A DNA stretch of 64,000 nucleotides, taken from the NCBI RefSeq assembly GCF_000827125.1, contig NZ_CP010311.1, positions 1,922,001 through 1,986,000 of the forward strand, given 5' to 3'. The notes beneath the pieces are model-generated. The model was not told the DNA's origin. It searched no databases and worked only from the letters and a program-made list of their open reading frames with translations. This DNA comes from Geoalkalibacter subterraneus. Lineage in GTDB: Bacteria; Desulfobacterota; Desulfuromonadia; Desulfuromonadales; Geoalkalibacteraceae. This document shows, piece after piece, positions 14,594 to 36,109 of this stretch; the first letter of the stretch is position 1, and every line of letters starts with the position of its first letter. The position numbers were made by a program, and so were the translations under genes.

Positions 14594-14608
14594 GTGGGGT
14601 CTGCTGCC

Positions 14609-14715
14609 GGGGGATTGCGCTCTCTCTGCCCAGGGACGCTTTTCCCCATCCCTGGGCGCTTGCCACCGCCATCCCTGGCGGCGGGACACCCTTGGCAGAG
14701 AGAGCGCAATCCCCC
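14609..14715. repeat. Long palindromic repeat element, copy A
   Basis: A perfect 22-bp inverted repeat (14609-14630 with 14694-14715) encloses about 63 nt. The interior holds two smaller hairpins built on the core CATCCCTGG (CCCAGGGA with TCCCTGGG, and CCGCC with GGCGG). The interior aligns with the reverse complement of copies B and C, while the outer arms differ in sequence. No coding frame is convincing. It sits between cusB and cusA. Confidence 0.85.
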
Positions 14716-14768
14716 TTGTCCTGAAAGGGCTTGGAGAACACACAAGGCCCGTGTAGCTGAACACTTCG

Positions 14769-14873
14769 TGGGGTCGCAGCTCCCATGGCAAGGGTGTCTG
14801 GCGCCAGGGAGGGCGCCAGTCAAACGGCCAGGGATGGCGAAAAGTGTCCCTTGTCATGGGAGTTGTGACCCCA
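14769..14873. repeat. Long palindromic repeat element, copy B
   Basis: 26-nt arms (14769-14794 with 14848-14873) pair with only three mismatches. All three would be G-U wobbles in RNA of the plus strand, so the RNA stem would be kept. The interior carries GGCGCCAGGGAGGGCGCC and GGCCAGGGATGGCGAAAAG, shared with copy C near 35974-36074 and, inverted, with copy A. It ends about 58 bp before the cusA ATG. Confidence 0.85.
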
Positions 14874-14931
14874 TGCTGTACATTTACAATCCAATAAGAA
14901 CAACGAACCACTAACAACGGACAGCTTCTAT

Positions 14932-17900
14932 ATGCTTGAAAAAATCATCGAATGGTCCAGCCGCAATCGCTTTATGGTGATCCTGGCGACGTTACTCGTC
15001 ATCGTCGGGGGGATTTATGCCGTGCGCAATATCCCCATCGACGCCATTCCCGATCTGTCCGACGTCCAGGTGATCATTTTTACCGAATATCCCGGGCAGG
15101 CGCCGCAGGTGGTGGAGGATCAGGTCACTTATCCGCTGACCACCCAGATGCTGGCGGTTCCTCATGCGAAGGATGTGCGCGGCTATTCGTTTTTCGGCCT
15201 CTCTTTCGTTTATATCATTTTCGAGGACGGCACCGACATCTACTGGGCGCGTTCGCGGGTGCTCGAATATCTCAACTACGCGGCCGGACGGCTGCCGCAG
15301 GGGGTGACGCCATCCCTGGGGCCGGATGCCACTGGTGTGGGTTGGGTTTACCAGTATTCCCTCGAGAGCGACCAGCACGACCTGCAGCAGCTGCGCTCCA
15401 TGCAGGACTGGTTTCTGCGTTACGAGCTGGCGGCGGTGGAGGGCGTCTCAGAGGTGGCCTCCATCGGCGGCTTCGTCAAGCAGTACCAGGTGCGGATCGA
15501 TCCGGACCGGCTGCTGGCCTATCACATCACCATCCCGGAGGTTCGCCGGGCGATTCAGCGCAGCAACAACGATGTCGGCGGCCGGGTGGTGGAGATGGCC
15601 GAGACCGAATACATGGTGCGCGGGCTGGGTTACATCCAGTCGATCGAGGATCTTGAGCAGGTCGTGGTCGGCACGGATGGTCGCGGCACGCCGATTCTGC
15701 TGAAGGATCTGGCCGAAGTGGGTATCGGACCGGAGCTGCGCCGCGGCCTGGCGGAGCTTGACGGGGAAGGGGAGGTTGTCGGCGGCATCATCGTCATGCG
15801 CTACGGCGAAAACGCACGCGCCGTCATCGAGCGGGTGGAGAGAAAGCTCGAGGAACTCAAGTCCGGCCTGCCCGAGGGGGTGGAGATCAAGACGGTCTAC
15901 GATCGCTCCGGGCTGATCGATCGTTCGGTGTCCAACCTCAAGGAGAAGCTCACCGAGGAGAGCATCGTCGTCGCCCTGGTTATCATCCTGTTCCTGTTCC
16001 ATCTGCCGAGCGCGATGGTGGTGATTCTGGCCTTGCCGGTGGGCATCCTCATGTCCTTCATCATCATGTATCTGCAGGGGATCAACGTCAACATTATGAG
16101 CCTGGGCGGTATCGCCATCGCCATCGGCACCATGGTGGATTCCGGCATCATCATGGTGGAGAACGCCCACAAGCGTCTGGAGCGCGAGCCGGATCGGCCG
16201 CGGACCGAGGTCATTATCGACGCGGCCAAGGAGGTGGGGCCAACCATCTTCTTCGCTCTATTGGTGATCACCGTCTCCTTCGCCCCGGTTTTTACCCTGC
16301 AGGAGCAGGCCGGGCGCATGTTCAAACCCCTGGCGTTCACCAAGACCTACGCCATGGCGACGGCGGCGTTTCTCGCCATTACCCTGGTGCCGGTTCTGAT
16401 GACCTGGTTCATCCGAGGGAAGGTGAGGAGCGAATCGGCTAACCCGATCAACCGTTTCCTGATCGCGTCCTACAAGCCGGTGGTGGATTTCGTTCTGCGC
16501 TGGCGCAAGTCGACGCTGCTGGTGGCGCTGATTTTGACACTCTCCATCGCCTGGCCCATGAGCAAGATGGGCACGGAGTTCATGCCGCCCCTCTACGAGG
16601 GTGACCTGCTCTATATGCCGACCACGCTGCCCGGAATCTCGATCACCAAGGCCAAGGAGCTTCTGCAGCAGACCGACCGCATCATCGGGCAGTTTCCCGA
16701 GGTGGAGCGGGTTTTCGGCAAGGTCGGGCGCGCTGAAACCGCCACCGACCCGGCGCCGCTGTCGATGATCGAAACCACGATTATGCTCAAAGATGAGGAT
16801 GACTGGCGTAAATTTCCTACGCCGCGTTTTTATTCCGACTGGCCGGACTGGACCAAGTGGTTGAAAAAACCGCTGCGGCTGGTATGGCCGGAAGAGAAGA
16901 CCATTACGGTGGATCAGCTGACCGAGGAGTTGAACAACGCCATCGACTTCCCCGGCCTCACCAATGCCTGGACCATGCCGATCAAAACCCGTATCGACAT
17001 GCTCTCCACCGGCATCCGCACGCCGGTGGGGATCAAGATCATGGGCGATGATCTGCAGACCCTCTCCGACCTCGGCGAGGAGATCGAGGCGCTGGTGCGC
17101 ACCCTGCCGGGAACGCTGTCGGCGTTTTCCGAGAGAGTCACCGGCGGCAATTATCTCGACTTCACCGTAGACCGGGCCGCAGCCGCCCGTTACGGCCTCA
17201 ACGTGGGGGATGTGCAGGATATTATCCAGAGCGCGATCGGCGGCATGAACGTCAGCCAGACCGTCGAGGGGCTGGAGCGCTACCCGATCAATATCCGCTA
17301 CATGCGCGATTATCGCAACGACCTGCAGGCGTTGGAGCGGGTGCTGATTCCGCTGAAAGACGGCACGCATGTGCCCATCGCCCAGGTGGCGGATATCGAG
17401 ATCAAGAAAGGGCCGCCTGCCATCAAAAGCGAAAACGCGCGCCCCACCGCCTGGGTGTTTGTCGACCTGCGAGGCATCGATGTCGGCACCTTTGTGGAAA
17501 ATGCCCGCGAGGCGGTGAACGAGCAGATCGAGCTGCCCACCGGCTACAGCATCGTGTGGAGCGGCCAGTACGAATACATCGAGTCGACCCGAGCGCGCCT
17601 TATGATGATCATCCCCATCACGGTTCTCATCATCTTCGTGCTGCTCTACATCAGCACCCGTTCGACGGTCAAAGCGGGAATCATCTTCCTCGCCATCCCC
17701 TTCGCGCTGGTGGGGGCCTACTGGCTCATGTACTGGCTCGGATACAACATGTCGATCGGAGTAGCGGTGGGATTGATTGCCCTGGCCGGCCTCTCCGCCG
17801 AAACCGGGGTGGTTATGCTGCTCTATCTCGACCTGGCCTACGAATCATGGAAGAAAGAGGGGCGCATGCTGACCCGGGGCGACCTGCACCAGGCGGTGCA

Positions 17901-35932: not shown

Positions 35933-35973
35933 GGAACAGAACCTCTTTGAAAAACTTTTATCGGCACCTCGTG

Positions 35974-36074
35974 GGTTTGCAGTTCCCATGACAAGGGTGT
36001 TTGGCGCCAGGGATGGCGCCAATCAAACGGCCAGGGATGGCGAAAAGTGGCCCTTGTCATGGGAACTGCAAACC
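35974..36074. repeat. Long palindromic repeat element, copy C
   Basis: A perfect 24-bp inverted repeat (35974-35997 with 36051-36074) encloses 53 nt containing GGCGCCAGGGATGGCGCC and GGCCAGGGATGGCGAAAAG. It is closely similar to copy B (14769-14873) in the inner part of the arms and the interior, and to copy A inverted. It lies between bioD and bioA, inside the operon. Confidence 0.88.
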
Positions 36075-36109
36075 AACGACAAACAGTTATTATCAGTTGA
36101 GTTTGGCGA

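Follow-up and report, generated by a model that had tools for sequence, protein, structure and literature searches.

The window analysed here is the 64,000-nt stretch of Geoalkalibacter subterraneus contig NZ_CP010311.1 from position 1,922,001 to 1,986,000. Two long palindromes lie in opposite orientation between cusB and cusA (copies A and B), and a third (copy C) lies between a bioD-like gene and a bioA-like gene. This arrangement, which a preliminary description had read from the letters alone, is borne out by the inverted repeats and by the Pfam assignments of the neighbouring genes. The features are as follows, with the strand being that of the GGA-containing loops.

14609..14715, minus strand: copy A, outer arms and interior (inverted repeat; covariance model R1, 104.5 bits at 14606-14717)
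14663..14684, minus strand: copy A hairpin 1, loop AGGGAT (sequence and fold)
14645..14656, minus strand: copy A hairpin 2, CCC[AGGGAT]GGG (sequence)
14753..14887, plus strand: copy B, full element of 135 bp (ends; model R1, 129.9 bits at 14766-14877)
14798..14819, plus strand: copy B hairpin 1, CTGGCGCC[AGGGAG]GGCGCCAG (sequence and fold)
14827..14838, plus strand: copy B hairpin 2, GCC[AGGGAT]GGC (sequence and fold)
35957..36090, plus strand: copy C (model R1, 125.6 bits at 35969-36080; ends by eye)
36001..36022, plus strand: copy C hairpin 1, TTGGCGCC[AGGGAT]GGCGCCAA (sequence and fold)
36030..36041, plus strand: copy C hairpin 2, GCC[AGGGAT]GGC (sequence and fold)

The preliminary description had proposed an element of about 105 bp, which is too short: the full length is greater, with ends that lie outside the arms (135 bp in copy B, about 35957-36090 in copy C). 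Its observation that the arms of one copy bear no relation in sequence to those of the other, although each pair is matched, holds, with paired changes far above those in shuffles. The arms of copy A (14609-14635/14689-14715) are 27 nt long and 96% complementary, and a search for ends outside them found no recognisable terminal repeats. Its GGA loops lie on the minus strand and are thus antisense to cusB-cusA, and its hairpin 2 is one of two alternatives, the minimum-energy fold pairing the loop with a downstream TCCC. The ends of copy B are degenerate (GTAGCTGAACACT...GCTGTACATTTAC), and the flanking bases match at only 4 of 8 positions. Copy C is likewise antisense, being placed between the bioD-like gene (upstream) and a class-III aminotransferase gene (bioA-like), both on the minus strand; its ends are degenerate, the left one being approximate (set by eye, with a different automatic choice), and a target duplication is not recognisable. 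Because A and B are inverted copies, 14627-14662 of A and 14821-14856 of B are 83% complementary over 36 nt, and pairing with A within a cus transcript could make the GGA hairpins of B inaccessible.

The three copies belong to a larger family. The shared core CCAGGGATGG occurs six times in the 64-kb window versus 0.17 expected, five of the six within A, B and C; the sixth (15310-15319, minus strand) lies within cusA and outside any element. Genome-wide there are 78 exact copies of the core and none of the reversed control pattern; some of the 78 lie outside elements, several of them in other sequence (e.g., loci L004 and L028). A covariance model built from 22 copies, the first model having GGA-loop copies as seeds, returned 112 rows in this genome, which reduce to 64 distinct sites after opposite-strand duplicates are dropped. 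The expectation of further copies is thus confirmed with at least 64 sites, a lower bound because 150 of 1977 candidates were scored. All 64 lie on contig C1; contig C2 (242 kb) carries no element copy, though several Y1 transposase genes are present on it. Beyond this genome, a strict pattern scan of a one-genome-per-species collection, in which records close to the window's may be omitted, found 18 stretches in six genomes (Pelovirga terrestris, Geoalkalibacter sp., a Geobacteraceae MAG, two Desulfuromonadales MAGs and a Deltaproteobacteria MAG).

The complete element is about 135 bp long, ends in GTAWCTRTTCASC and is flanked by 8-bp target duplications. Its 13-nt ends outside the arms are near GTATCTATTCACC on one side and near GCTGAACAGTTAC on the other, and its usual length, 135 bp in this genome (G000) and 137 bp in the relative G001, is too short for a transposase gene. 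Among the 35 of 64 G000 copies with both ends recognisable, the 8-bp flanks match on average at 5.14 of 8 positions, compared with 2.38 after shuffling of the right flanks between copies (maximum over 2000 shuffles, 3.31); the match peaks only at zero shift, and the duplication is exact in 5 of the 35. The corresponding values in G001 are 5.53 and 2.30, with a highest shuffled value of 3.28 (32 of 44 copies, five exact). The terminal repeat of the copies starts with GTAA, as is typical of IS66. A single complete IS66-family element is present in the genome (C1:2578069-2579796, 1728 bp), with one transposase ORF (Pfam DDE_Tnp_IS66, 2.6e-44) and the ends GTAACTATTC[AT]GC / GTAACTATTCAGC, which the 13-nt ends of the copies resemble; no target duplication is recognisable at its flanks. 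Homologues with 77-78% identity and similar ends occur in three more element-rich genomes, one with an exact 8-bp duplication and two without. At E 1e-20, a homologue was found in 4 of the 16 element-rich genomes searched and none in the other 12.

Given terminal repeats, 8-bp duplications and an IS66 element with the same ends, the family is classified as an IS66-type MITE, which agrees with the small non-autonomous element first envisaged. Judged from sequence, its mobile nature is nearly certain, and the single-ORF IS66 transposase of this genome would presumably be the enzyme that moves it. The interior of the IS element was rejected as a source of the hairpins, as the two-hairpin module was not found in the IS copies (best match, 14.8 bits). 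The RAYT parentage also suggested at the outset did not hold up: the genome has 26 Y1-transposase matches, and the 20 loci around 19 of them carry no element, leading to rejection of a RAYT/REP origin. One element, at C1:342945, nevertheless has a Y1 gene on either side, at distances of 2.4 and 3.2 kb.

What the family carries between its ends is a defined module, in which two hairpins, of 8 bp and 3-4 bp and spaced by about 24 nt, are enclosed by an outer stem of about 26 pairs. Both loops read A-N-GGA-N, the first A often pairing with the last U in minimum-energy folds, and the folds of 18 element stretches (about 157 nt) range from -71.8 to -89.3 kcal/mol. Across the 64 G000 rows, the successive A, G, G and A positions are kept in 58/58, 53/54, 57/58 and 58/58 rows at hairpin 1 (six rows gapped) and in 61/63, 63/63, 63/63 and 62/63 rows at hairpin 2, while loop positions 2 and 6 are variable; these counts come from alignments fitted to the model, and the G000 conservation arises partly by construction, because GGA-loop copies served as seeds of the first model. 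In the relatives (56 rows, 53 distinct), the G, G and A of hairpin 2 are kept in 55/55, 55/55 and 53/53 rows, position 2 shifts from mostly G in G000 to mostly T, and the stem starts with GCC, GTC or CCC with matching partners. In 21 of the relatives' 56 rows, hairpin 1 has no free base and its loop shrinks to a pentaloop such as CGGAT or AGGAC. In G001, 42 to 44 of the 44 rows conserve any given GGA position. An unguided hairpin search recovered GGA in loop 1 of 107/116 and in loop 2 of 68/116 copies, often picking an overlapping hairpin with an AAAAG loop. In G041-type copies (e.g., L189 1501-1611), the GAC that forms the 3' side of hairpin 2 doubles as the 5' side of a second hairpin, GACG[AAAAG]CGTC; since this strand is common to both, the two hairpins are mutually exclusive and form a possible RNA switch.

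The compensatory changes expected if arm pairing is what is kept were found in 24 of 37 pairs among 22 copies and in 30 of 37 pairs when 57 distinct copies, representing at least 13 genomes, are compared. Doubly changed cells number 379 versus 111 in shuffles, and a slid alignment yields at most 17 pairs and 82 cells, although the 57-copy alignment was fitted to the structure and is hence favourable to it. The case for an RNA module with CsrA-type loops is strong, and these loops, which had no place in the preliminary account, are its most informative part.

Mismatches within the arms bear on whether the structure is kept as RNA or as DNA. Neither strand of a DNA duplex is privileged, and G-T and A-C mismatches should therefore be equally frequent in a palindrome maintained at the DNA level. 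Read on the GGA strand, the arm ratio of G-U to A-C is 53:37 in G000, 99:12 in the relatives and 89:7 in G001, the last being largely shared by descent and falling to 16:6 when counted by column and type. Counting once per column, type and genome gives 75:24 for G000 plus relatives, and each of the 13 genomes that contain such mismatches leans towards G-U (G029 has none). Such an excess is as expected if the RNA of the GGA strand is what is kept, though part of it reflects ascertainment because the model scores G-U above A-C. Within G000 the arm ratio is 25:12 for sense and 16:10 for antisense copies, and the excess is absent (12:15) from the 19 copies not located between co-directional genes. 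The short stems show no excess in G000 plus mixed relatives (8:14) and one of 21:5 in G001. Palindromes can also undergo arm-to-arm correction at the DNA level, which may add to the perfection of the arms. Taken together, covariation and the G-U excess over A-C in the arms support the RNA structure that had been proposed as one of two options.

With regard to placement, 62 of the 64 G000 copies are intergenic according to a simple codon-based gene caller, and their neighbours are co-directional in 45 cases, convergent in 11 and divergent in eight. This distribution would suit a cis-acting RNA that uncouples the genes of an operon by terminating transcription, by serving as a processing site for RNase III or E, or by altering mRNA stability, an option raised in the preliminary description, particularly as such stable folds would affect a transcript in either orientation. 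However, of the co-directional G000 copies 25 have the GGA strand in sense orientation and 20 in antisense (p 0.55), and 16 sense and 15 antisense copies make up the 31 co-directional sites of G001 (44 sites among the matches listed, of 57, with the weakest copies left out). In a mixed set of 51 copies from 13 relatives (three from G001, two antisense ones counted in both sets), 28 are co-directional, with an antisense excess of 21 to seven (p 0.013). T-runs within 20 nt of an arm occur in 2/64 copies on the GGA strand and 2/64 on the other strand, compared with 7/128 control stretches; being no commoner than in controls, they constitute no intrinsic-terminator signature, and an intrinsic terminator is rejected. 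A run of eight T does follow the copy at C1:45918. Uncoupling within operons as a general rule is not supported, given antisense copies as frequent as sense ones or more so and the lack of a T-run excess, and a symmetric long stem would leave the conserved asymmetric loops unexplained. Such uncoupling is therefore considered improbable.

A different kind of strand preference emerges when replication is considered. With dnaA at C1:434 and the GC-skew change near 1.95 Mb as guides, 46 of the 64 G000 copies have their GGA loops on the lagging strand (assigned by hand; binomial p 6e-4), hinting at replication-coupled insertion or selection; in G001 the GC skew is patchy. GGA is present in both loops of 55 of the 64 G000 copies. 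A GGA loop has been lost from 7 of 25 sense co-directional copies versus 1 of 20 antisense ones (p 0.059), or versus 2 of 39 when all others are taken together (p 0.022), as if working sites were harmful between co-directional genes. This excess of broken sense loops is not repeated in G001 (2/16 versus 3/28, with the weakest copies outside the set).

The loop motif itself points to a particular host protein, as the fuller form of a CsrA site is ANGGA. CsrA sites consist of GGA in hairpin loops and occur in pairs, as described in PMC4333381 and PMC11934962. There is one csrA gene in this genome, and its own leader contains two hairpins of this type, gtcc[AGGGAA]ggac and gcc[AGGGAG]ggc, of which the second covers the RBS. 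Among 30 leaders of this order (L031, L191-L219; loci for 33 csrA matches), an ANGGA-loop hairpin adjoins the csrA start codon in 25, mostly as GCC[ANGGAG]GGC (this genome included), and a second GGA hairpin is often present upstream. These hairpins likely form an autoregulatory leader; because the RBS supplies GGAG anyway, the flanking stem is their telling part.

The distribution of csrA agrees with such a connection, kinship being ignored in all of the following comparisons. The gene is present in 12 of 14 element-bearing versus 19 of 44 other genomes (p 0.006). In a second, partly shared set of 88 genomes with a completeness of 90% or more, in which the top match counts stand for at least 43 a genome, it occurs in 22 of 29 element-bearing versus 29 of 59 others (p 0.022) and in 16 of 18 genomes with five or more matches versus 35 of 70 others (p 0.003). 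It was not found in seven of the 29 element-bearing genomes, two of which have 17 and 10 matches. A comparison of copy number between element-bearing genomes with and without csrA (p 0.067) is not counted as support. Binding of CsrA to the RNA of the element, and an effect of such binding, are plausible in light of these sequence features.

If the sites are real, the host itself might have domesticated them as a sponge, selecting the total dose of CsrA sites in place of CsrB-type sRNAs. The high proportion of G000 copies with GGA in both loops would fit this, as would the situation in Geobacter sulfurreducens, for which one source describes CsrB-type sRNA as uncharacterised and FliW, a proposed antagonist of CsrA, as present (PMC13407953), with three CsrB-type sRNAs predicted in another (PMC11934962). 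Host selection, however, predicts the reverse of the more frequent breakage of sense copies in G000 (a bias not repeated in G001), and the occurrence of elements is very patchy (29 of 88 genomes), making a domesticated sponge very improbable.

A purely selfish IS66-type MITE represents another alternative, in which hairpins and loops matter as DNA, either as a cruciform or single-stranded and recognised by the transposase or a host DNA protein, and the likeness to CsrA sites is a coincidence. Terminal repeats, target duplication and the partner IS are all in place for it, sense orientation is not favoured, the lagging-strand bias of the core points to a replication-coupled DNA step, and the short stems have no G-U excess outside G001. 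Less easily accommodated is the arm G-U excess, whose strand specificity would not be expected of DNA (with the reservation that G-U outscores A-C in the model). The variation of the loops mainly at the two positions that the CsrA motif leaves free, the like hairpins at the csrA start codon and the absence of the module from the IS66 copies also argue against it. On balance, this DNA-only explanation appears rather unlikely.

The best explanation, to which we assign a probability of roughly 0.6 on the sequence evidence, is an IS66-type MITE that carries an RNA module with paired CsrA sites and whose copies act as scattered decoys. The single-ORF IS66 transposase would recognise the ends, move the MITE in trans and leave the 8-bp duplications. 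Where the GGA strand is transcribed, for example by read-through or antisense transcription, the resulting RNA would offer paired sites that are predicted to hold a CsrA dimer, a docking suggested by the motif, the covariation, the likeness to csrA leaders and the co-occurrence with csrA. The summed copies could thereby serve as scattered decoys of CsrA, while sense copies near start codons could, as a by-product, put single genes under CsrA control. Since sense placement is not favoured, the module is read as probably being kept by selection on the element lineage rather than at each insertion site.

The genome may thus be littered with mobile regulator-binding sites. More broadly, and only tentatively, with odds we would place slightly short of even, the family could represent transposable elements that spread with a conserved RNA cassette binding a global regulator of the host, so that mobile CsrA sites rewire or titrate the Csr network in a clade without a characterised CsrB-type sRNA, with the TwoAYGGAY RNA family as a second branch. 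MITEs have mostly been seen as passive palindromes; here one carries an RNA module whose GGA loops are near-fixed across genera while stems and arms change. If CsrA binds, this would provide a concrete way for a selfish element to build or drain a post-transcriptional regulon, and both the counteraction of CsrA in Geobacter relatives and the role of TwoAYGGAY would become directly testable.

Several known systems share parts of this organisation. With IS66 elements the family has the ends in common, although the IS copies lack the two-hairpin interior. The target duplication is likewise 8 bp, the length given for two IS66 elements in PMC3281130, whereas the partner IS has a single ORF in 1728 bp, unlike the multi-ORF organisation that the same source calls typical of IS66. 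REP/BIME, ERIC and Correia/NEMIS sequences are similarly short intergenic palindromes that can be co-transcribed with the host gene; we know of no conserved loop pair resembling a protein site in any of them. In contrast to REP-type repeats, the present element was not found at the RAYT flanks here. Transcripts containing Correia elements are cleaved by RNase III, and Coxiella MITEs make sRNAs, according to a review of prokaryotic MITEs whose main text mentions neither CsrA nor IS66 (PMC10969869). No MITE or repeat with CsrA sites appears among the literature matches listed, although an earlier nameless listing of this repeat is possible, as 'multicopy nucleotide sequences' of Geobacter and Pelobacter have been catalogued (PMC2700814, PMC2996986, PMC3543383). 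The sRNAs CsrB, RsmY and RsmZ resemble the element in presenting GGA loops on hairpins, in pairs (PMC4333381), but each is encoded by one dedicated gene, whereas the element consists of dispersed mobile copies with two sites per unit.

At the Rfam gathering thresholds, only tRNA was detected in the window and in 20 relatives' loci, and below-cut-off miRNA and snoRNA matches were taken as chance. The nearest known RNA family is TwoAYGGAY (RF01731), below the Rfam cut-off: two copies from relatives align to the whole model with 37.6 and 36.7 bits, copy B scores 19.6 bits, and none of these three scored copies attains the gathering cut-off of 43 bits. On our reading of the alignment, the likeness comprises the outer stem, the pair of hairpins with their GGA-type loops, and a linker similar to CAAG. 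TwoAYGGAY is a member of Rfam clan CL00106, which we take to be the CsrA-binding clan. Binding of CsrA to TwoAYGGAY has been predicted from motif matches (PMC4333381), and the family has been described from the human gut, Gammaproteobacteria and Clostridiales (PMC2864571); TwoAYGGAY, too, may be the RNA of a comparable mobile element.
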